Positions 1 to 9,988 of a stretch of DNA of 10,001 bases are shown here, in pieces. A program made the translations under genes and the position numbers. The DNA lies in contig JAGBQP010000013.1 of the NCBI GenBank assembly GCA_017632825.1, positions 1 through 10,001 on the forward strand, in the 5' to 3' direction. Numbering within the stretch: the stretch's first letter is position 1; each line of letters begins with the position of its first letter. The notes beneath the pieces are model-generated. The model did no database searches. It worked only from the letters and a program-made list of their open reading frames with translations, and was not told the DNA's origin. This DNA is from Prevotella sp. (GTDB taxonomy: Bacteria > Bacteroidota > Bacteroidia > Bacteroidales > Bacteroidaceae).

Positions 1-117
1 CTGGAGAACACCCGTCGCCGCCTGGAACTGATGTATGCTAACCGCTATACCTGGGAACAGTCGATTGATGGCAACATCATCCATACACGCATTACCATAA
101 TAAATAATGAGCAATGA
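1..117 (+). CDS. LytS/YehU-type sensor histidine kinase, C-terminal end only
   Basis: Only the last 38 codons are inside the window; the gene begins upstream. Frame 1 opens with the residues LENTRRRLELMY, matching the conserved end of the ATP-binding domain of LytS/YehU-type kinases (typically GxGLxNxRxRLxxxY). The rest runs to a TGA at 115-117. The product would be the membrane sensor that phosphorylates the response regulator encoded next. The two genes overlap by ATGA, the stop sharing bases with the regulator's ATG at 114, which indicates translational coupling and a cognate pair. The signal sensed cannot be deduced because the sensor part lies outside the window. The family call rests on one short motif plus the context. 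Confidence 0.8.
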   Translation: MENTRRRLELMYANRYTWEQSIDGNIIHTRITIINNEQ

Positions 118-872
118 ATAAAAATCTCACCTGTATCATCGTTGACGACGAGCCCCTGGCCGTAAAGCTGATGGACTCGTTTGTAGCCAAGACACCCGAT
201 CTGGTGCTGCTGGACAGCTTTACCGACTCGGTAGAGGCGATCAATGCCGTGAAAGAGCAGAAACCCGACTTGCTCTTTCTCGATATCCAGATGCCCGACT
301 TGAACGGCATGGAGCTGGCACACATGATTCCTGTCGAGACACGCGTGATATTCACCACAGCCTTCAAAGAGTACGCCTTCGAAAGCTACGAAGTGAAAGC
401 CCTCGACTTCTTGCTCAAGCCCATACGCTACAACAAGTTTCTGGTGGCAGTAGAGAAAGCAAAGGAGTGGTTTTCCATGAGGAATGAGGAGTGTGGAAAG
501 CAGAATGCGGAGTGCGGAGCGAAAACTGAGGACGGCCCACAGAGCCTGTTTGTTCGGGTTGACGGCGAACTGCGCAATATCAACATCAAAGATATCATCT
601 ACGTGAATGGCATGAAAGACTATGTGATGTTCTATCTGGAAGGAGAGACCAAGCCACTGATAACCCACATGACGATGAAGGCCGTAGAAGAGATGCTCCC
701 CCCAGAGCGATTCCTGCGCGTACACCGATCATATATTATAGCAGTAGATAAAATCATAAAGATAGACCGCAACGACTGTATCTACATCCACAACGAGATT
801 ATTCACGTACCCGATGGCTACCAAGATGCCTTCCATAAATTCCTGGGAACGCGCACAATTAACAAAATGTAA
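114..872 (+). CDS. LytTR-family two-component response regulator
   Basis: A 252-residue DNA-binding response regulator. The receiver domain spans about residues 5-118: acidic pair D11/D12, probable phospho-acceptor D57 in FLDIQMPDLNG, T81 and the conserved K102 in LLKPIR. The LytTR DNA-binding domain spans about 144-246 and carries the signature FLRVHRSYIIA near 200-210. Length is normal for the family. The start overlaps the kinase stop by ATGA, so the two genes form an operon, and phosphotransfer from that kinase is the likely input. The target promoters are unknown. The interdomain linker (about 120-143) is odd: it contains two copies of an N-x-E-C-G motif that come from a DNA-level repeat described separately. 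A long hairpin begins 8 bp after the stop. Confidence 0.93.
   Translation: MNKNLTCIIVDDEPLAVKLMDSFVAKTPDLVLLDSFTDSVEAINAVKEQKPDLLFLDIQMPDLNGMELAHMIPVETRVIFTTAFKEYAFESYEVKALDFLLKPIRYNKFLVAVEKAKEWFSMRNEECGKQNAECGAKTEDGPQSLFVRVDGELRNINIKDIIYVNGMKDYVMFYLEGETKPLITHMTMKAVEEMLPPERFLRVHRSYIIAVDKIIKIDRNDCIYIHNEIIHVPDGYQDAFHKFLGTRTINKM
482..519 (+). repeat. Two-copy 17-nt imperfect direct repeat in the response-regulator linker
   Basis: Bases 482-498 and 503-519 match at 14 of 17 positions and are offset by 21 nt, so the repeat keeps the reading frame. They encode NEECG and NAECG between the receiver and LytTR domains. The repeat is purine-rich and unlike the surrounding codons. It resembles a short repeat inserted into a tolerant linker rather than a conserved protein element. 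Confidence 0.65.
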
Positions 873-880
873 CCTTAATC

Positions 881-930
881 GAAAATATTCGGCAATTTCC
901 TTGGAAGTTACTGAATATTTTCTTATTTTT
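881..930 (+). terminator. Long hairpin with T-rich tail after the kinase/regulator operon
   Basis: Bases 881-890 (GAAAATATTC) and 913-922 (GAATATTTTC) are perfect reverse complements. The 22 nt between them continue the dyad about the same axis (901/902) with one clear mismatch (893/910) and two wobble pairs. The result is a near-complete 42-nt palindrome, followed by the T-rich stretch 923-930. It starts 8 bp after the regulator stop, as expected for an intrinsic terminator. The same bases contain the gdhA promoter boxes, so an operator role is also possible. Confidence 0.65.
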
Positions 931-931
931 G
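901..931 (+). promoter_or_regulatory. Bacteroidetes-type promoter of gdhA
   Basis: TATTTTTG at 924-931 fits the -7 consensus TAnnTTTG. TTGG at 901-904 is a plausible -33 box at 19-nt spacing. Transcription would start near 936-940, leaving an A-rich leader of about 55-60 nt before the gdhA ATG at 995, with no Shine-Dalgarno site. The -33 box sits on the axis of the upstream palindrome. Confidence 0.7.
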
Positions 932-994
932 CAGTATCAATAATATCATATTGTCATTTAACTAACAAAATAACAACCTTTAAAATACTACGCT

Positions 995-2332
995 ATGGAA
1001 GTTAATAAAATCATGCAAGACCTGGAGCGCAAGCATCCGGGTGAATTAGAGTATCTGCAGGCCGTTCGTGAAGTTCTTGAGTCTATCAAGGACGTTTACA
1101 ACCAGCATCCTGAGTTTGAGAAAGCCAAAATCATAGAGCGTATTGTGGAGCCCGAACGTATCGTCACCTTCCGCGTGCCCTGGGTCGACGACAAGGGTGA
1201 GGTACAGGTGAACCTCGGCTACCGCGTACAGTTCAACAGCGCCATCGGCCCCTACAAAGGCGGACTGCGCTTCCACCCCAGTGTCAACCTCTCTATTCTG
1301 AAGTTCCTGGGGTTCGAGCAGACGTTCAAGAACGCGCTTACCACACTGCCTATGGGTGGTGGCAAGGGCGGCTCCGACTTCTCCATTCGCGGCAAGAGCG
1401 ACAACGAAGTCATGCACTTCTGTCAAGCCTTTATGACTGAGCTCTATCGTCACATCGGTCCCGATGAGGACGTGCCCGCCGGCGACATCGGCGTAGGAGC
1501 CCGTGAGATTGGCTACCTCTTCGGTCAGTATAAGAAGCTCACCCATCAGTTCCAGGGTGTGCTAACAGGTAAGGGTCGTGAGTGGGGCGGCAGCATCCTG
1601 CGTCCCGAAGCAACAGGTTATGGTGCCTTGTACTTCGTTCACCAGATGCTCACCGAGCACGGCCTCGACATCAAGGGCAAGACTGTAGCCATCAGCGGCT
1701 TCGGCAATGTGGCTTGGGGTGCCGCCAAGAAGGCTACCGAACTTGGTGCCAAGGTCATCACCATCAGCGGTCCCGACGGTTACATCTACGATCCCGCCGG
1801 TCTCGACGCCGAGAAGATCGAGTACATGCTGGAGCTGCGTGCTTCAGGCAACGACGTCTGCCAGCCTTATGCTGACGAGTTTGAAGGCTCTGAGTTCTTC
1901 GCAGGCAAGAAGCCGTGGGAGCGCAAAGCCGACATCTACCTGCCCTGCGCCACTCAGAACGAGCTCAACGGCGCCGATGCCGACCAGATTTTGGCTCACA
2001 AGCCGCTCTGCGTCGCCGAGGTATCCAACATGGGCTGCACAGCCGAAGCTGCAGAGAAATTCATTGCCGCCGGTCAGCTCTTTGCTCCTGGCAAAGCCGT
2101 CAACGCCGGTGGCGTTGCCACCAGTGGACTCGAAATGACACAGAACTCTATGCGTCTGTCGTGGACAGCCGACGAGGTTGACCAGCGTCTCCATCAGATT
2201 ATGGCCGGTATTCACGAGCAGTGCGTCAAGTACGGCAAGGAGCCCAATGGCTACATCAACTATGTCAAAGGTGCCAACGTCGCCGGCTTCATGAAGGTTG
2301 CCAAAGCTATGATGGCTCAAGGAATAGTATAG
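995..2332 (+). CDS. gdhA: NADP-type glutamate dehydrogenase
   Basis: A 445-residue cytoplasmic enzyme interconverting 2-oxoglutarate plus ammonium and glutamate, probably with NADPH; it is a main ammonium-assimilation route in Bacteroidales. The N-terminal substrate domain contains GPYKGGLRF (K88), Q109 and K112, PMGGGKGGSDF with the catalytic lysine K124, and PAGDIGVG with D164. These sit at a constant offset of four from the E. coli GdhA residues as I recall them. The Rossmann domain has the dinucleotide loop SGFGNVAWGAA at 234-244. Length is normal for the hexameric enzymes. NADP preference is inferred from the family and from the absence of an acidic residue at the end of the second Rossmann strand (ITISGPDG); dual cofactor use is possible. 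The gene has its own promoter and is flanked by hairpins, so it is probably monocistronic. Its last codons are duplicated just downstream. Confidence 0.96.
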   Translation: MEVNKIMQDLERKHPGELEYLQAVREVLESIKDVYNQHPEFEKAKIIERIVEPERIVTFRVPWVDDKGEVQVNLGYRVQFNSAIGPYKGGLRFHPSVNLSILKFLGFEQTFKNALTTLPMGGGKGGSDFSIRGKSDNEVMHFCQAFMTELYRHIGPDEDVPAGDIGVGAREIGYLFGQYKKLTHQFQGVLTGKGREWGGSILRPEATGYGALYFVHQMLTEHGLDIKGKTVAISGFGNVAWGAAKKATELGAKVITISGPDGYIYDPAGLDAEKIEYMLELRASGNDVCQPYADEFEGSEFFAGKKPWERKADIYLPCATQNELNGADADQILAHKPLCVAEVSNMGCTAEAAEKFIAAGQLFAPGKAVNAGGVATSGLEMTQNSMRLSWTADEVDQRLHQIMAGIHEQCVKYGKEPNGYINYVKGANVAGFMKVAKAMMAQGIV

Positions 2333-2392
2333 CCTGAGACATCAAAGGTTACCTTTTGAATGGCTCAAGGAATAGTATAACCTGAGACATCA
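2294..2392 (+). repeat. Adjacent tandem duplication of the gdhA 3' end
   Basis: Unit 1 is 2294-2344 (51 bp: last gdhA codons, TAG stop and 12 bp beyond). Unit 2 is 2345-2392 (48 bp) and begins at the next base. The distal 33 nt (2312-2344 versus 2360-2392) differ at one base, g2332 versus a2380, turning TAG into TAA. The proximal part shares AAGGTTRCC and then diverges with a 3-nt length difference. Unit 2 carries a relic mini-ORF, MAQGIV-stop, at 2360-2380. It appears non-functional as coding sequence and lies in the 3' UTR. Confidence 0.9.
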
Positions 2393-2402
2393 CTATTAAC
2401 AG

Positions 2403-2438
2403 TCGCCGCTGAGACTCCTGCAGGAATCTCAGCGGCGA
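2403..2438 (+). terminator. Strong GC hairpin ending the gdhA transcript
   Basis: TCGCCGCTGAGA at 2403-2414 is the exact reverse complement of 2427-2438, giving a 12-bp stem. The 12-nt loop contains TCCTGCAGGA, so the stem can extend past one mismatch. It lies 70 nt after the gdhA stop. The downstream stretch (TATTGATTATT) is only moderately T-rich, so this may be a terminator or a 3'-end stabilising structure. Confidence 0.7.
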
Positions 2439-2475
2439 TATTGATTATTAGACCAATTAGAAAATGAACAATTAA

Positions 2476-2507
2476 TTTGGAGAATAAGATATTTTTACCT
2501 ATCTTTG
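2476..2507 (+). promoter_or_regulatory. Bacteroidetes-type promoter of the RlpA-like gene
   Basis: TTTG at 2476-2479 (-33) and TATCTTTG at 2500-2507 (-7, TAnnTTTG) are separated by 20 nt. The match is near ideal. The -7 box ends only 13 nt before the ATG at 2521, so the mRNA leader would be under about 10 nt. Confidence 0.8.
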
Positions 2508-2520
2508 CAGCAGAAAGAAT

Positions 2521-3006
2521 ATGTTTAACGAAAAGACCATCAACAAACACCTGTTACGCATAGTCATGCTGTGCGCCGTTTTATTGATGTCTGTAACGGT
2601 TACCGCACAGATGCAGACCGGCAAGGCTTCGTTCTATGCCAAGAACCTCTCTGGCCGTAAGACGGCAAGCGGCGAACGGCTGCACAAAGACTCTCTGACG
2701 TGTGCCCACCGCAGCTACCCCTTCGGCACACTGCTGCGTGTCACCAACGTACTCAACGGTCGAAAGGTCATCGTGCGCGTCAACGACCGCGGTCCCTTTC
2801 ACAAAGGCCGTATCATCGACCTCTCGTGGGGAGCTGCTAAGGAGCTGGGCATGATTGCCCAGGGCATTGCCTCCGTGACGGTCGAGAAAATGGACGAACT
2901 GAATATTCCATTCAAGCCTCAAGAGGATATCTTACCGAAACTCGAACTCGACGTTGCCGACATCGTGGAAGATACCGTCACCACTATTCCCAAGTGGAGA
3001 CGATAA
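2521..3006 (+). CDS. RlpA-like secreted double-psi beta-barrel protein
   Basis: A 161-residue protein with a signal peptide (basic n-region, hydrophobic residues 12-28, likely cleavage after TVTAQ or nearby). It has no lipobox cysteine, so it should be soluble in the periplasm or secreted. Residues about 34-124 are an RlpA-type double-psi beta-barrel: GKASFYA, SGRKTASGE, LTCAHRSYPFGTLLRVTN, and VRVNDRGPFHKGRIIDLS with D89. RlpA proteins bind septal peptidoglycan; some, such as the Pseudomonas enzyme, are lytic transglycosylases acting on denuded glycan. There is no C-terminal SPOR domain, only a short acidic tail, so septal targeting by SPOR is absent and enzymatic activity is inferred. The chosen start gives a proper signal-peptide n-region. 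An internal ATG at residue 16 would lose the positive charges, although it would lengthen the leader. Confidence 0.88.
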   Translation: MFNEKTINKHLLRIVMLCAVLLMSVTVTAQMQTGKASFYAKNLSGRKTASGERLHKDSLTCAHRSYPFGTLLRVTNVLNGRKVIVRVNDRGPFHKGRIIDLSWGAAKELGMIAQGIASVTVEKMDELNIPFKPQEDILPKLELDVADIVEDTVTTIPKWRR

Positions 3007-3046
3007 TGGTTGCTGAATGGTTTTTGAAAGCATTTCAAATTTTGAT

Positions 3047-4369
3047 ATGAACGAAATAAAGTGTCCCAACTGCGGGAAAGTGTTTTCTGTGGATGAAGCA
3101 AGCTATGCTTCGGTGGTTAATCAGGTAAGAACGCTGGAGTTCCAGACGGATGTGGAACGTCGTGTGAAGGAGATTGAGAAGCAGCAGGAACTGCTGCGGC
3201 AATCGGACAAGCTACAGGCAGAGCAGGGTTTCCAGAAGCGAATCAACGAGATAGAACATCAAATAGCCGAACGCGACGCCGAGATAGCCAGCCTGAAAGA
3301 ACAGGTGAAAAATGCGGGTATAGCCAGACAGGCGGAGTTCGACAAGCAGATGGCCGTCAAAGAGAGCGAGATAGCGAAACTGAAAGGCGAGGTCACACTG
3401 AATCAGGACAAGATAGAGGTCGCCGTGCTGAAGGAGCAGAACAAGGCTAACGAGATCATACAACAGAAAAACGGCGAAATTCTATCGTGGAAGGAAAGAC
3501 TGGAGACGGAGAAGATGGACTCGCTGCGCCGCGAGCAGGGACTTCGTCAGGGGTACGAGCAGCAGCTGAAACAGCAGCAAGAACTGATAGACTACTACAA
3601 GGACATGAAAACGCGTTTGTCCACCAAGATGATTGGCGAGACCTTGGAGATTCACTGTTCGACACAGTTCAACCAAATGATGCGTTCGATGCTGCCAAAT
3701 GCCTACTTCGAGAAAGATAACGACGCATCGGGAGGCAGTAAGGGCGACTTTATCTTCCGTGACTTTGCGCCTGACGGTACGGAGTATGTATCCATCATGT
3801 TTGAAATGAAAAATGAGGCCGACGAAACGGCAACCAAGCATAAGAACGAGGACTTCTTCAAGAAGCTCGATGCTGACAGGACTGCCAAGGGCTGCGAATT
3901 TGCCGTTTTAGTATCACTGCTTGAGCCCGACAACGACCTCTATAACGGTGGTATCGTAGATGTGTCGTACAAGTACGACAAGATGTATGTCATCCGACCA
4001 CAGTTCTTCTTGCCCATCATTTCGCTGCTCGTACAGACATCGAAGAAAAGTCTGGCGTACAAGCAGCAGTTAACTATAGCACAAAGTCAGTCCGTAGATG
4101 TGACGAACTTCGAGAACCAACTGCTGGACTTCCAGGAGAAATTCGGGAAGAACTACCGTCTGGCCAGCGAGAAGTTCAAAACGGCCATCGACGAGATAGA
4201 CAAATCGATTCTGCATCTTCAGAAGATTAAAGACGCTCTGATTGGCAGTGAGAACAACCTGCGTCTGGCCAACGACAAGGCTGAGGCGCTGACCATTAAA
4301 AAGCTGACTCGCAACAATCCGACCATGAAAGCGAAGTTTGATGAAGCCAGAAACATAGCGACTGACTGA
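3047..4369 (+). CDS. DUF2130 protein: coiled coil with a PD-(D/E)XK-like core
   Basis: A 440-residue protein of unknown role. The ATG at 3047 is chosen over the in-frame 3017 because [18 protein letters not shown] is the usual DUF2130 N-terminus. That end has a single CPNC pair (C6, C9) like half a zinc ribbon. Residues about 30-190 form a long, charged, Gln/Glu-rich coiled coil. The DUF2130 core, about 190-335, contains GETLE (E198), SKGDF (D234) and FEMKNE (E253, K255). This spacing of D then E-x-K is the catalytic pattern of PD-(D/E)XK phosphodiesterases, and I recall the family being placed in that fold class. A shorter helical region ends the protein. There is no signal peptide, so it is cytoplasmic. 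It lies 40 bp after the RlpA-like gene with no visible promoter and may be co-transcribed. Family is firm; nuclease activity is inferred. Confidence 0.85.
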
Positions 4370-4401
4370 AACGAGCCGTCAGCAACTCAGCGTCATTAAA
4401 A

Positions 4402-4482
4402 GTAAACAAGTTGTTTTACGTTATCGTGTGGCACCCGCAACATCGTGGGAACGCCTCAGTAACCGTAAAACAACTTGTTTGT
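4402..4482. repeat. Long inverted repeat in the convergent intergenic gap
   Basis: Bases 4404-4420 and 4464-4480 are perfect 17-bp reverse complements (AAACAAGTTGTTTTACG on the left). Two outer G-T pairs extend them, as do three inner pairs across a one-base bulge. Each arm contains its own 13-nt dyad (AAACAA-N-TTGTTT), so the arms are also near direct repeats. The 43-nt loop can fold further (GGC/GCC, CCC/GGG). The repeat lies between genes converging on it, so a bidirectional terminator is the simplest reading. A REP-like dispersed element is the alternative. Confidence 0.85.
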
Positions 4483-4493
4483 ATGTGATAAGA

Positions 4494-4511
4494 CCGTCGG
4501 ACAAGCGACGG
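4494..4511 (-). terminator. Small GC hairpin after aqpZ
   Basis: CCGTCG at 4494-4499 and CGACGG at 4506-4511 form a 6-bp stem with a 6-nt loop. Reading the minus strand, it begins 6 nt after the aqpZ stop. The following bases (TCTTATC) are only partly T-rich, so the call is moderate. It may act together with the larger inverted repeat at 4402-4482. Confidence 0.45.
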
Positions 4512-4517
4512 GACGAT

Positions 4518-5195
4518 TTATTTCTCGTTCGTATCAATCAGCTTCCAACAGCAGGCAGCCAGTGCGCCGCCCACCAACGGGCCTACAATGAACACCCAGA
4601 GCTGCTCCAGAGCTGCGCCTTGCTCGAACAGGGCGGGACCAATAGAACGGGCGGGGTTGACACTCGTACCAGTGAAGTTGATGCCCACCAGATGAATCAG
4701 TATCAGCGACAGGCCGATGGCCAGACCGGCAAAGTTGTTAGTTGCGCCGTTGGTCTTAGCCGTAGCACCGAGGACAACCATCACAAAGATGAACGTCAGG
4801 ATGATCTCGGCCAGCAGACCGTTCACGATATTTTCAGAAGCACAGGCATTGGCTCCTGTAGCCGTACCGCGTGCCAGTCCTGGATCAGTCGATACTAGCA
4901 AAGCCAGCAAAGCTGCAGCAACAATACCGCCGATAACCTGGAAGAGCATATACATACTGGCTTCCTTGCCGTTCATGCGTCCGCTGAGGAATACGCCCAG
5001 TGTAATAGCAGGATTGATGTGACAGCCAGAAATACCGCCGATGGTGTAGGCCATAGCAATAACAGCCAAGCCAAAGGCAAAAGCAGTTCCCACAACAGAA
5101 GCGGTGTCAACACCACAATTCAGGCTGACGGCAGCACCGCAGCCAAGAAACGTCAGCACAAACGTGCCAAACAGTTCAGCAAAGTACTTTTTCAT
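4518..5195 (-). CDS. aqpZ: Aquaporin Z water channel
   Basis: A 225-residue inner-membrane channel of the MIP family with six hydrophobic segments. Both NPA boxes are intact: SGCHINPAITLG (N61-A63) and TSVNPARSIGPA (N180-A182). The aromatic/arginine selectivity filter reads F41, H168, T177 and R183, the combination of orthodox water channels such as E. coli AqpZ (F43, H174, T183, R189) and not of glycerol facilitators. Water transport is therefore the expected role. Length is normal. The start gives MKKYFAELFGTF, typical of AqpZ. It lies 53 bp behind the glycine-zipper lipoprotein on the same strand. I see no TAnnTTTG box in that gap, so read-through from the lipoprotein promoter is likely. 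Confidence 0.96.
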   Translation of the reverse strand: MKKYFAELFGTFVLTFLGCGAAVSLNCGVDTASVVGTAFAFGLAVIAMAYTIGGISGCHINPAITLGVFLSGRMNGKEASMYMLFQVIGGIVAAALLALLVSTDPGLARGTATGANACASENIVNGLLAEIILTFIFVMVVLGATAKTNGATNNFAGLAIGLSLILIHLVGINFTGTSVNPARSIGPALFEQGAALEQLWVFIVGPLVGGALAACCWKLIDTNEK

Positions 5196-5251
5196 AAGCG
5201 TTAGTGTTTAGTTGATTGATAGTTAAAGGTTTTGCATGCAAAAAACGCTTA
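5195..5251 (-). repeat. Inverted repeats in the lipoprotein-aqpZ gap
   Basis: TAAGCGTT at 5195-5202 and AACGCTTA at 5244-5251 are 8-bp reverse complements. In the transcript they place the lipoprotein stop codon in one arm and the base just before aqpZ's start in the other, overlapping the A of the ATG. Inside lies a perfect 14-bp palindrome at 5230-5243 (TTTTGCATGCAAAA). This could be an attenuating hairpin, a start-codon mask or chance. Confidence 0.4.
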
Positions 5252-5617
5252 CCAGGGCAACGTGTCATCACCCCCGTTGTTAGGGTCGTAGCCACTACCG
5301 TCGTCCTGCTGTTTCGACTGTGTACGCTGTCTGACAGTTGTCTGGCGCTGCTGCTGACGCTGATAGGCACGTTCTTCAGCCTCACGCTCGGCCTTCTTGT
5401 CGGCAGCCTTACCGACGGCGGCGCCAATGGCGGCACCTCCAGCCATACCAACAATCTGACCAACGTTACTGCCCCGCCAGCCGCCAGCAATACCGCCGAT
5501 GGCAGAACCGAGAACAGAACCAAGCTGGGCACCGGTGTAAGCGCCGGCTCCTTCGTAGCTTCCACAACTGCTGAGTAGCAGTGCAGCGGCAAACGTACAG
5601 GTCATCAATTTCTTCAT
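5249..5617 (-). CDS. Small glycine-zipper lipoprotein
   Basis: A 122-residue envelope lipoprotein of unknown function. The signal peptide MKKLMTCTFAAALLLSSC ends in a lipobox with the lipidated cysteine at C18. Residues about 23-70 are Gly/Ala-rich with repeated GxxxG spacing, resembling glycine-zipper domains that form membrane-inserting helical hairpins in SlyB/OmpA-associated lipoproteins. A charged Gln/Arg/Glu-rich helix follows (about 71-105), then a flexible acidic Gly/Asn/Asp tail ending DTLPW. The ATG at 5617 is preferred to an in-frame ATG at 5650 because the signal peptide starts there and the upstream codons fall within the promoter. Localisation to the outer or inner membrane is not resolved. 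It is transcribed toward aqpZ, possibly as a two-gene unit. Confidence 0.85.
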   Translation of the reverse strand: MKKLMTCTFAAALLLSSCGSYEGAGAYTGAQLGSVLGSAIGGIAGGWRGSNVGQIVGMAGGAAIGAAVGKAADKKAEREAEERAYQRQQQRQTTVRQRTQSKQQDDGSGYDPNNGGDDTLPW

Positions 5618-5647
5618 ATCGCGTAACGGTTTGATTGTTTCTCGGTG

Positions 5648-5710: not shown

Positions 5711-8700
5711 CTATTTCGGGAAACAGAAACTGCGACGGCCTGTTGCAAGGAAGCCAAAGCGGTCGGTAGCCTCAACCTCGACGGTGTGGGCACCGCTACT
5801 GGCAGCCACAGGCAGCTGGAGTGTCCAAAGCTGGCCGGAGGCACGGTGACGCAGAGGGTTCAAGCGGTTATATTTAGTAGGATATATGTGCTGAAGATTT
5901 TGCTCACGGGCACGGGCAACATTAGGATCGACAAGGGCCTGCTTCTGGCACACCTGCCACTCGCCGCCATCAATGCGGCAACGCACCTGTGTGCTGTCGC
6001 AACCGCCCCAGACGGTCATCATGAGAAGTCCTTCGGGCAGCTCCTTCATATCGCGCAGGTGCTGGTCAAGACTGTCGATACCAGTGACGTGGATATTCAT
6101 CTGACGGTCGGCATCGAGACCCACAGCCTTACAGCGAACGGTATAGCGGGTGTCGTCGAAGTCGAGTACAAAATAGTTACGTGGAGTACCTTCCTGTTGC
6201 AAGGCCGAAGGAACACCGTCGGACTCTTTCTCACCTACCCACCAGAAACCACAGGCGGCACCGGCACCAAGTTCATGAATACGGACTCCACGCCCCTCGT
6301 GAAAGAAGCGGGCAACGGAGTGCATGTGACCGCTGAGCACAAGAACATCTCCCCTACCCTCAACAAGACTGATAAGTTCGGCTGCATTGGCCGTATGAGC
6401 CAAAGGAACATGCATACTGAGGACGATGAGACGGTCGGCAGGCACATGCTGCAGGTCCTGACGTACAAAACGGAGCTGACGCTCGGAGAAACGGCCTTTA
6501 TAGCCACGGGCACCATCGGGATAGACGTTGTTAAGCACCACGAAATGGCAGCGTCCCTCATTGAATGCATACATATCGGCACCGAAGACCGTGTTATAGC
6601 TACGCGTCTGTCGCCAGGCCACCGTATCGACATCGCGGTCATGATTGCCAAGAACGGTCCATGACTGCTGCGGCAACTGCTCCATGAGGCGGCGCATGTC
6701 GGGATAGAGCGAAAGATTATTATTGACAAGGTCACCAAGGAATATATTAAGCGTGGTAGTCGCTGATGCATGGCGGGTGGCGGGCGACGGAAGGAGTTCG
6801 GGCCACAGCGTACGGGTTGCGTAGTCGAGCTCCTGATAATTGCTGACCTGCACGTCACCTATCGCATTGAGGCGGAAGCGACGATTGACGGATTTACGCG
6901 TCAAGGGGAAATTGACAACCGACTGCTGATCGGCATAGTGGAATCCAGCGTTGACAACACGGCTCGCTGCCAGCGTATAGTCGGGCGGCAGAATGGGAAA
7001 GACGGAGCTGCCTTCGACTACGGGCAGACTGTAACGGCCCTGCCTGTCTGTGACGACAATGGTGTCGCCGTTGCTGACGGGAATGCCACGCAGTCCTTTC
7101 TCGCCCTTATCCTGCAGGCCGTTACCATTGCGGTCATCAAAAAGACTGCCGCTAACTGTAGTAGATTGTGTATGAAGACTGGCATGAGAAGGCGGCAAAA
7201 GAACGGCCTTGACCTCATAAGCATCGCGGATGACGTGATGGGCATAAGCAACGAGCGTGTCGATTGACATCTGACGGACCACATCGGCGTATCGTCTGAA
7301 CCAGGTCCAGTCTTCCTGATTGTTATAGACAGCATTGCGCACCCACGAAGTCCAATAGCTGGTCTGCTGAAGCTGGAGAGTATGGTCTTTCAGCAGGTTC
7401 TCCTTGACATCGTCAAGATAGGAGGCATATCGCTGAGGTTGTGTATAGAATTGCTGCAACTCATCGTGGGTAGCTTGTATAAGAACATCGACATCGGCTG
7501 GCTGGCAAACGAAAGCGATGGTGGCACGACTCAAATAGGTGGGATAACGGCCTGAAGCAACGGAGGCACTGACACTATAGACCTTACCCATATCCTCGCG
7601 CAACCGTTTAAGCAGGGCTGAACGGAGAATGGACTTCAAGGCCGAGGCATAGATTTCCTGACGTTGCAGATTGCCCTGGGGACGATCCTGCTGAAAAGTC
7701 AGCGTGACGGTAGCCTTCTGCTGGTCGTAGGTGGGGCCGATAAACTCTGTGTAGCGGTGGGGAATCTGACGGGCAGGCACAACCCATGTGGTGTCGGGTT
7801 GCCCGGCAGGCAGACCACCTATATAAGTACTGATGTAAGAACGCACGTCGTCAAGGTCGCAATCGCCCATGATGACAAACGTGAAGCCCGTGGCAGGGCC
7901 ATAGAAACGATGGTGAAGTGCCAACATGTCGGCGGGCCTCACCTCGCGATCGATGATTTTATCGGTCATCACGCTGTTGGTATAGTTACGACCGCCAATG
8001 AGCCAGCCGAGTTCGCGATTGAAGATATCGGAGGGTGTCTCGGTCTTCGTGAGATAGTTTTCCTTGAGTTTGTCGATGGTGAGGCGGCAGACGGCTGTGT
8101 CGAGGCGAGGCTGTGTCCACCGTAGCCACAGAAGTTGGAACATGGTCTCCATATCCTGCAGATGGGCAGAGCCGGCGACACCGGTGCGCAGCTTATCGAC
8201 CAGTAGACGAACAGAAGCGGTATTGCCCGTGAGATAGTGGCTCAGGGCCTCGCGCGAGAAATCGCCGGCGCCGCTCAGGCTGATAATGCCTGGAGCTACT
8301 ACACCCGTGAAATAGTGAAGACTGTCAACACCATACTGTCCACCCTTGCGGAAAGCAGAGAGCGTCAGACGGTCGTGTTCGGTATCGCTACGACGGAAAA
8401 TGACACGAGCACCATTGTCGAGACGCAGGTCAACGGCTCCTATCTCGGGAATGGGCTGCTCGCTGACAATATGGTCGGCAGGCTCGAGCGTCGTCAACTG
8501 TTCAGGCACGTCGGTATAGTGCCAATAGCGGGCAACAGGCTGGTGGCGATAGGTCGTGATGAGCAGCCGCAAATCGTCCTCATCGGACACCTCCTGAGCT
8601 ACCTCTTCGCCACCACGCAGCAGGATATGCTGGGGACGGGACACGAACGTGGTCTGAATGAGCTGCAGTAACGACAGCGAGTCGATAGTGGGCAGATAGC

Positions 8701-9988
8701 GCTCCATGAGTGCCAGTTCGGTCTCACGCGAAATAAAGCGATTGCCTTCATAATAGTCGGCATAGATCTCATCCATCAGACTGACTGAGCGAACATTCCG
8801 ACCGGCACTGGTCACTTTGTTGCGCATGGAGCTGAGTACGGCTTTCTTGGCACGGGCTATCTCAGACTGGGTGAAACCATAGCGGAAAATCTGCTGCTGA
8901 TGGGTGATAAAGTCGGCAATACCTTTACGCAAACGTCCCTTGACAAGCTCGACGGAAGCATCGGTAACGCCGGTAGCGCCGAGAAAACGGGAGTACTGGA
9001 TACTGCCTTTGGCATAGGCTGGATTGTCGAATGACAAAGCGGCAAAACGCGCCTTCATCAGACGGTTGACGAGACTACGCTCCAAATACTGGCGGTAGTC
9101 GTCGGCGGTCTGAACGGCTGGCGGCTGCGGCAGCAACATCAGCATATCGAGTTCGGTAGTCTTGACACCGGGAGCCGTAGCAATGGTGAAGGCCTCTGCC
9201 GTGTATTCGGGAATCGTAGGAACAACAGAAGGAACCGGCTTGTCAGATTTCCCCGTCATACCGGAGAACTTCTCACGAATGTGGCGCTCCATCTGGGTAG
9301 CATCGACATCGCCAACGACTGCAAGGGCCATAAGCTCTGGCCGGTACCATTGTTCGTAATACTGCCGGATGGTCTCTGGCGAAGCATGACGAATAATGGC
9401 GGTGTCGCCAATGGTGATGCGGCGATCGTAGATGGAACCATTCAGAATCTCGCGGACAAGGCGCATGGAATTATCAGTCTGCGTGCCGCCACGCGACAGC
9501 CACTCTGACAGAATGACGCCACGTTCCTTCTCGACCTCGGCAGGGTCAATGGTCAGCCCACAGGCCCAGTCGGCGAGGATGGTTAGCGTCGAATCGACCA
9601 TCAATGGGTCTGTGCAAGGTAGCTGCAGCTTATAGACGGTCTCGTTGAATGATGTATGGGCGTTCAGATCCTTGCCGAACTTAGCTCCTTTAGACTCCAG
9701 GAAACGGACAATGCCGTCGCCAGGGAAATGTTTAGTTCCGTTGAAAGCCAGATGCTCGAGGAAATGGGCCAGTCCCTGCTGGTCATCGCGCTCGTTAACG
9801 GAGCCCGACTTGACAAACAGACGATAGACGGCCTCACCCCGAGGTGTCTGGTTGGGATATATATAATAGGTCAGTCCATTCTTCAAACGCCCCATGCGCA
9901 ACTGAGGGTCACGGGACAAAAGCTGTGCTGATGCCAGTAATGGCATCAGCAACAGCAAAATGTTAATGATAACTCTGTTTCTCATCAT
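5711..9988 (-). CDS. Secreted M16 zinc peptidase fused to a calcineurin-like phosphoesterase
   Basis: A 1425-residue periplasmic or exported protein. A signal peptide ends near residue 21 (LLASAQ). Residues about 25-932 are a complete two-half M16 (pitrilysin/PqqL-like) peptidase. The active half has HFLEH (H75, E78, H79) with third zinc ligand E155 in KERG. The second half (from about 515) lacks the zinc motif but keeps R797 and Y804, which complete the site in this family. After a short Ser/Thr/His linker, residues about 945-1425 form a complete phosphoesterase: an N-terminal beta domain with a DxNGNGxxDxGE loop (951-963), then GDVQ (D1045), GDLVNN (D1086), GNHD (1114-1117), MH (H1193) and GHMH (H1221, H1223), and a C-terminal beta domain. 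Each half matches the normal length of a free-standing protein. A peptidase cutting short periplasmic peptides and a phosphoesterase of unknown substrate are inferred. ATG 9985 is an alternative start. Confidence 0.93.
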   Translation of the reverse strand: MMRNRVIINILLLLMPLLASAQLLSRDPQLRMGRLKNGLTYYIYPNQTPRGEAVYRLFVKSGSVNERDDQQGLAHFLEHLAFNGTKHFPGDGIVRFLESKGAKFGKDLNAHTSFNETVYKLQLPCTDPLMVDSTLTILADWACGLTIDPAEVEKERGVILSEWLSRGGTQTDNSMRLVREILNGSIYDRRITIGDTAIIRHASPETIRQYYEQWYRPELMALAVVGDVDATQMERHIREKFSGMTGKSDKPVPSVVPTIPEYTAEAFTIATAPGVKTTELDMLMLLPQPPAVQTADDYRQYLERSLVNRLMKARFAALSFDNPAYAKGSIQYSRFLGATGVTDASVELVKGRLRKGIADFITHQQQIFRYGFTQSEIARAKKAVLSSMRNKVTSAGRNVRSVSLMDEIYADYYEGNRFISRETELALMERYLPTIDSLSLLQLIQTTFVSRPQHILLRGGEEVAQEVSDEDDLRLLITTYRHQPVARYWHYTDVPEQLTTLEPADHIVSEQPIPEIGAVDLRLDNGARVIFRRSDTEHDRLTLSAFRKGGQYGVDSLHYFTGVVAPGIISLSGAGDFSREALSHYLTGNTASVRLLVDKLRTGVAGSAHLQDMETMFQLLWLRWTQPRLDTAVCRLTIDKLKENYLTKTETPSDIFNRELGWLIGGRNYTNSVMTDKIIDREVRPADMLALHHRFYGPATGFTFVIMGDCDLDDVRSYISTYIGGLPAGQPDTTWVVPARQIPHRYTEFIGPTYDQQKATVTLTFQQDRPQGNLQRQEIYASALKSILRSALLKRLREDMGKVYSVSASVASGRYPTYLSRATIAFVCQPADVDVLIQATHDELQQFYTQPQRYASYLDDVKENLLKDHTLQLQQTSYWTSWVRNAVYNNQEDWTWFRRYADVVRQMSIDTLVAYAHHVIRDAYEVKAVLLPPSHASLHTQSTTVSGSLFDDRNGNGLQDKGEKGLRGIPVSNGDTIVVTDRQGRYSLPVVEGSSVFPILPPDYTLAASRVVNAGFHYADQQSVVNFPLTRKSVNRRFRLNAIGDVQVSNYQELDYATRTLWPELLPSPATRHASATTTLNIFLGDLVNNNLSLYPDMRRLMEQLPQQSWTVLGNHDRDVDTVAWRQTRSYNTVFGADMYAFNEGRCHFVVLNNVYPDGARGYKGRFSERQLRFVRQDLQHVPADRLIVLSMHVPLAHTANAAELISLVEGRGDVLVLSGHMHSVARFFHEGRGVRIHELGAGAACGFWWVGEKESDGVPSALQQEGTPRNYFVLDFDDTRYTVRCKAVGLDADRQMNIHVTGIDSLDQHLRDMKELPEGLLMMTVWGGCDSTQVRCRIDGGEWQVCQKQALVDPNVARAREQNLQHIYPTKYNRLNPLRHRASGQLWTLQLPVAASSGAHTVEVEATDRFGFLATGRRSFCFPK

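Follow-up and report, generated by a model that had tools for sequence, protein, structure and literature searches.

A gene of Prevotella joining an M16 peptidase and a calcineurin-like phosphoesterase, with relatives at the end of SusC-SusD operons

What might a bacterium gain from tying a peptidase and a phosphoesterase into one polypeptide behind a single signal peptide? This question is posed by a gene in the first 10,001 nucleotides of contig JAGBQP010000013.1 from Prevotella sp. (assembly GCA_017632825.1), a stretch of DNA referred to here as the window. A sequence-only reading had proposed that positions 5711..9988 encode a one-frame fusion of two full enzymes sharing one signal peptide. 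This is borne out by a single open frame on the reverse strand, running from ATG to stop over 1425 amino acids with 0 internal stops, and by the Pfam domains within it. The first enzyme is a two-half M16 peptidase; the second, abbreviated here as MPE, is a calcineurin-like phosphoesterase part with MetallophosN and MetallophosC domains. We consider it about evenly poised between right and wrong that the product is a bifunctional, exported and probably periplasmic enzyme of a SusC-SusD (SusCD) importer, which would cut an imported peptide or protein and remove a phosphate ester. The gene and its parts are laid out as follows.

5711..9988, reverse strand: fused M16 peptidase-MPE gene, 1425 amino acids (open frame, Pfam, fused relatives)
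9926..9988, reverse strand: predicted signal peptide, residues 1-21 (sequence and a hydropathy of 2.70; cleavage site judged by eye; no lipobox cysteine)
9503..9856, reverse strand: Peptidase_M16, PF00675, residues 45-162 (Pfam)
9752..9766, reverse strand: HFLEH zinc motif, residues 75-79 (invariant in the M16 alignment)
9524-9526, reverse strand: E155, third zinc ligand (M16 alignment)
8840..9382, reverse strand: Peptidase_M16_C, PF05193, copy 1, residues 203-383 (Pfam)
7193..8491, reverse strand: second M16 half, about residues 500-932, with R797 and Y804 (two PF05193 stretches, alignment to a solved chain, model, these residues)
7157..7192, reverse strand: linker, residues 933-944, no signal peptide (sequence, hydropathy, model)
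6929..7108, reverse strand: MetallophosN, PF16371, residues 961-1020 (Pfam)
6272..6883, reverse strand: MPE catalytic core, about residues 1036-1239 (invariant residues, model and fold matches)
5753..6271, reverse strand: MetallophosC, PF16370, residues 1240-1412 (Pfam)

The N-terminal part has the make-up of a two-half M16 peptidase, with an HxxEH motif and a downstream glutamate, PF00675, and PF05193 found as two stretches, the best at residues 203-383; a solved M16 chain aligns by sequence to residues 21-932. On the MPE side, PF16371 (36.2 bits, barely above the curated cut-off of 35.6) and PF16370 (121.7 bits against 29.7) both exceed their thresholds and place the protein among the MetallophosN/MetallophosC proteins. 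These four families had been anticipated from the sequence, as had PF00149, which gave no match in the window protein at E<=0.01; PF00149 is matched in the unfused relative from locus L014 and, according to precomputed domains, in some fused relatives. The zinc site that had been described as intact, HFLEH plus E155, is present and invariant in 91 of 91 rows of the M16 alignment. Likewise, D1045, Q1047, D1086, N1115, H1116, H1193, H1221 and H1223 are invariant in 120/120 MPE rows. The general signature of the calcineurin-like superfamily is the dimetal ligand set D-x-H, GD, GNH[DE], H and GHxH, and the metal residues, previously called largely present, include D1045, D1086, N1115, H1193, H1221 and H1223, with Q1047 at the place of the first histidine.

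The junction between the two enzymes had been described as some 12 to 15 residues long, free of a stop and of any signal peptide remnant, and closer inspection leads to the same picture. With P932 as the last residue of the M16 part and the MPE beginning near residue 945, the linker comprises 12-14 residues; the best 11-residue hydropathy mean around it is 1.02 vs 2.70 at the N-terminus. Fused proteins in general read KAVLLP or a near variant, then 12-33 variable residues, then the MPE. In 32 fused rows, the corresponding junction value lies between 0.74 and 1.97, and the N-terminal value is 2.18-3.32 in 29 of them, the remaining three having short or odd N-termini. Hydropathy exceeds 1.6 in 67/72 unfused MPEs from the database; the highest linker value (1.97, in the alanine-rich linker of P0027) reaches the lowest among 17 unfused MPEs from genomic loci (1.95, L015). 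The linkers of P0005-P0009 are rich in His, Pro, Ser, Thr and Leu and resemble a translated short DNA repeat. In four Prevotellaceae loci (L010-L013), M16 and MPE are adjacent but separate genes of the same operon; the M16 gene closes with KAVLLP and a TGA that shares bases with the start codon of the MPE gene (ATGA), and the split MPE begins with its own hydrophobic signal. By this comparison, the two parts are joined at the position where M16 has its stop in the split relatives, and the fused MPE has lost its signal peptide, so that it would now depend on the M16 signal.

The window gene is far from a lone exception among relatives that keep the enzymes apart. A search of 5.8 billion proteins returned 1635 matches, and among the 120 listed there are at least 31 full-length fused clusters (P0001-P0031, 66-99% identity) that come from several sources, with as many as 139 members in a single cluster; shorter proteins containing portions of the two halves (P0032, P0033, P0121) occur among the matches listed here and in the MPE search (120 of 184). 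Very distant independent fusions may exist besides these. When one genome per species was scanned with patterns derived from the MPE, 27 loci emerged, nine of them fused (L001-L009), with records titled Prevotellaceae or Prevotella. The ratio of non-synonymous to synonymous substitution rates (dN/dS) is 0.08-0.20 for each half in six fused-gene pairs, with dS at 1.1-1.9 and near saturation in the three pairs involving the window gene, and indicates purifying selection on both halves. The sequence-only reading had argued that a simple sequencing error joining two exported genes would be expected to leave the second signal peptide behind. With at least 31 fused clusters, nine fused loci and purifying selection against it, and nothing found in its favor, an assembly or sequencing error that joined two genes has a practically negligible chance of being the explanation.

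The fusion is sparse and accessory, given the few fused genomes in scans at three taxonomic levels. In the genus of genome G001, 7 of 150 genomes match at E<=1e-140, four fused (G001, G005, G006, G119), one split and two with MPE only. In its family, 3 of 399 match at 1e-130 and in its order 31 of 393 at 1e-115, G001 being the only fused genome each time; the order scan otherwise comprises four genomes with a close M16 or MPE and 26 with only M16 paralogues of 27-30% identity. A separate M16 paralogue (25-31% identity, E<=1e-60) is present in 21 of the 22 genomes searched through the loci, G009 being without it. Among plasmids, 208 records match, each below 60% identity in the 20 rows listed, and no record covers 80% of the query in one place.

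The genomic neighborhood of the relatives gives the fusion its likely physiological setting. The fused gene comes last, after SusC, SusD, lip4 and c1 and on the same strand as these, in 8 of the 9 fused loci, and this gene set accompanies the MPE in 23 of the 27 loci (SusC is cut by the locus end in two). The transporter is a SusC with a SusD, matched in the PDB by SusC/RagA chains. In many of 20 loci, with start codons partly guessed, SusC is preceded by boxes that resemble the Bacteroides -7 promoter element, a known motif. The small putative lipoprotein lip4 (about 155 amino acids) has no Pfam family and no match among solved structures. The c1 protein (about 510-570 amino acids) shows Kelch, BNR and DUF6242 matches below cut-off and, among solved structures, nothing beyond two weak hits on a designed protein (E about 0.02); neither c1 nor lip4 has anything above cut-off in NCBIfam. 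The SusCD complex BT2261-2264 of B. thetaiotaomicron has reportedly been solved with two extra lipoproteins; as the c1 matches are weak and lip4 has none, we claim no kinship to these. Carbohydrate-active enzymes next to SusCD would mark a polysaccharide utilisation locus; no gene family of the operon itself matched such an enzyme, genes farther out in the loci being left unannotated. The sequence-only reading had recognized the fusion and had missed what surrounds it, namely the position at the end of a SusC-SusD operon, the split versions there and the many fused genomes.

Several side observations concern this operon. Judged by eye, c1 carries a lipoprotein-like signal in some loci (e.g., L001, L014); in L002, L005 and L011 it has a plain signal peptide and a different C-terminal tail, perhaps a type 9 secretion tail, as if the mode of surface anchoring had been exchanged. 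In L007 (3905-7876), c1 is tandemly duplicated in one open frame of 1323 amino acids upstream of the fused gene. Locus L025 derives from a metagenome-assembled genome titled Lachnospiraceae bacterium and holds a Bacteroidales-type SusCD operon, probably through a binning error.

Living relatives display separate, overlapping and fused stages of one gene pair. Apart from the ATGA-overlapping pairs described above, c1 lies between the M16 and MPE genes in L014, L015, L018, L022, L025 and L027, L014 being from the cultured species Hallella bergensis, and the distant genome of L048 has the same order, M16-c1-MPE. In L045, likewise distant (about 44% identity, far from Prevotellaceae), the order is c1-M16-MPE with M16 and MPE overlapping by ATGA. 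We dropped a gene-order history leading from M16-c1-MPE through c1-M16-MPE to the fusion, and we make no claim on the first gene order, since L045 already shows the overlapping arrangement. L019 has an MPE without the operon, its M16 match being a 28% paralogue, and the MPE of L024 is cut by the end of the locus. In L017, the stretch from c1 to MPE holds what looks like the tail of an M16 gene (7817-7948), whose end overlaps the beginning of the MPE gene by ATGA. This remnant emerged from the reading frames and was not seen by tblastn (best E 8.1); the highest-scoring of three frames gave 43, a value that none of 1000 shuffles of its residues attained, and M16 has probably been lost there. No M16 remnant was found in the gap between c1 and MPE of L016, where about 600 bases (7320-7925) contain a TAnnTTTG-like box near the MPE start and the MPE signal has a possible lipobox; here the MPE may be transcribed from a promoter of its own and be separately anchored.

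Did the fusion arise once? In the tree of the M16 part, the fused rows form one clade with a support of 100 in the Shimodaira-Hasegawa-like approximate likelihood ratio test (SH-aLRT), requiring one change; its 91 rows comprise 31 fused sequences (the window and P0002-P0031), 50 of the 87 unfused P0034-P0120 and 10 loci, with P0001 (99% like the window), P0032, P0033 and the paralogue of L019 left out. The MPE tree of 120 rows (31 fused, 72 of P0122-P0199 after dropping six outside 470-545 amino acids, and 17 loci; P0121, P0200-P0240 and the truncated L024 left out) speaks against a single origin, as it requires four changes, at least three of them forced by well-supported branches; a 65-row subset still requires three. 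The nine fused loci were assumed to repeat P rows and were left out of both trees. The approximately unbiased (AU) test does not reject a single MPE clade (p 0.546), the constrained tree even being better by 2.12 log units. With one change in the M16 tree, a disagreeing MPE tree and a non-rejecting AU test, a single origin appears likely, although not settled. An unfused group including L016 is nested inside the fused MPE rows (branch 97), and a split after fusion is possible for this group; some lineages may likewise have split off or exchanged their MPE part at a later time.

Structural comparisons add to the view of the two enzymes. Among solved sequences, the M16 part matches best to 9ldy (E 4.5e-98), whose title says no more than 'Peptidase, M16 family'; PqqL matches over its full length (residues 24-933, E 1.7e-65), and chains titled 'putative zinc protease', which we take to be FusC, match at E about 1e-30. 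The MPE model is nearest in fold to GpdQ, Rv0805 and purple acid phosphatases, at 14-20% identity. In these enzymes the first histidine ligand stands where the MPE has glutamine, and the MPE differs from them in its extra N- and C-terminal domains. In a model of residues 500-1425 the parts are well folded, with a predicted local distance difference test score (pLDDT) of 93.4. The two enzymes look like beads on a string in an arrangement that is not fixed, a picture that favors co-delivery over channelling.

From these data we derive the following model. SusC/SusD, together with the two exported accessory proteins lip4 and c1, would bind and take up a peptide or protein substrate bearing a phosphate ester; the M16 clamshell would cleave the polypeptide, and the tethered two-metal phosphoesterase would take off a phosphate mono- or diester. 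Fusion of the neighboring genes, in which the M16 stop and the signal peptide of the MPE were lost, would cause both activities to be made one to one and exported together. The earlier suggestion that a phosphorylated peptide or a substrate from the envelope is processed in a coupled manner is plausible, and because in relatives the M16-MPE gene mostly ends a SusC-SusD operon, the context points to an imported substrate and not to the cell's own envelope. Bacteroidota possess a great many SusCD pairs, and for many of these no substrate is known. As a gene fusion is direct evidence of linked activities, the fused enzyme might name the chemistry of the cargo, a peptide bond plus a phosphate ester. 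More tentatively, then, the importer could serve phosphorylated peptides or proteins, or peptides bearing a phosphodiester-linked group, processed by one bifunctional protease-phosphoesterase; this prediction would extend to the whole operon family.

A number of observations weigh against this model. The glutamine Q1047, which occupies the position of a histidine in the general signature, is found in 120/120 MPE rows. L003 (3-7299) is the exception among the nine fused loci, with no operon beside the fused gene (a SusC piece nearby upstream, on the opposite strand and 75% identical to the SusC of L002, hints at a rearrangement). The window ends 13 base pairs upstream of the start codon with no upstream gene readable there, and the operon of the window gene is therefore taken from its relatives and not seen. 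Six loci (L016, L017, L020, L021, L023, L026) have c1 and MPE without M16, and the distant L046 has SusCD-lip4-M16-c1 without MPE, which lies on another contig of the same genome; neither enzyme is thus needed everywhere. The model of residues 500-1425 reaches a predicted template modelling score (pTM) of 0.65, with linker residues 936-940 below a pLDDT of 50, and shows no fixed complex. Finally, we know of no role for 9ldy, the closest solved structure.

Some of these points suit an alternative in which fusion secures co-production and co-export only, the enzymes acting separately on different substrates (for instance peptides and glycerophosphodiesters) brought in by one importer. We hold this to be a real, though not a probable, possibility: it fits a linker of 12-33 variable residues that is disordered in the model, a domain arrangement that is not fixed and the operons with just one enzyme, but it sits less well with the recurrence of both enzymes in the same operon of divergent genomes and with the retention of the fused form in at least 31 clusters. 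The exposed and variable linker might also be cut after export, the fusion then being a neutral result of stop-codon loss between overlapping genes, a step that the ATGA overlap makes simple. Yet the linker has stayed short and free of a signal peptide in 32 fused rows and does not lengthen towards clean domains, and we regard this explanation as unlikely. Still harder to sustain is the notion that M16 serves the maturation of import-system or envelope proteins and MPE works on phospho-groups of the envelope, no imported cargo being processed; some M16 peptidases are indeed processing enzymes (chains of the mitochondrial processing peptidase match the M16 part at E about 1e-18), but the SusCD linkage and the closer match to PqqL, an importer partner, argue against it.

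The remaining genes of the window (114-5195) look ordinary: a LytTR response regulator, glutamate dehydrogenase, a DPBB-domain protein, a DUF2130 protein and an aquaporin-type channel. Downstream of the fused gene, at 5249-5623 on the reverse strand, lies a Gly-zipper lipoprotein-like gene of 124 amino acids; its counterparts in L002, L004, L005, L008, L009 and L016 have 245-259 amino acids, the window copy being without the C-terminal half.

How does the bifunctional enzyme that we propose relate to known systems? PqqL and FusC are described as periplasmic proteases working with a TonB-dependent importer (PMC6793856). As in Fus of Pectobacterium and YddB/PqqL of E. coli, the M16 part is a two-half enzyme with a signal peptide, and its gene, in the relatives, stands beside a TonB-dependent outer-membrane transporter (PMC6793856). 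The transporter differs, however, being a SusC with a SusD partner and not of the FusA/YddB type, and a phosphoesterase is fused onto the protease. The Pus systems are SusCD loci with predicted periplasmic phosphatases or phosphodiesterases, and PusCD of Flavobacterium, likened here by its description, shares with the relatives of the window gene a SusCD pair co-encoded with a phosphoesterase; the passages on it that we consulted mention no protease (PMC8115612). For B. thetaiotaomicron, a table lists, by description only, a 'calcineurin-like phosphoesterase C-terminal domain-containing protein' located close to a SusCD pair (PMC10434189). The unfused Prevotellaceae MPEs (P0122 and others, L010-L014) are as much as about 70% identical in the MPE part and have the same ligands; they differ in being separate genes with their own signal peptides. 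Both enzyme families and both operon themes are thus known; in keeping with the earlier impression of an undescribed architecture, their union in one chain and its operon are, as far as searched, without a description in the open-licence literature. The enzyme resembles a hybrid of the Fus/PqqL and Pus systems and belongs to neither. If our model holds, it would represent a combined, previously undescribed system for protein import and phosphate release, and would extend the protease-plus-importer idea of Fus and PqqL to SusCD systems.

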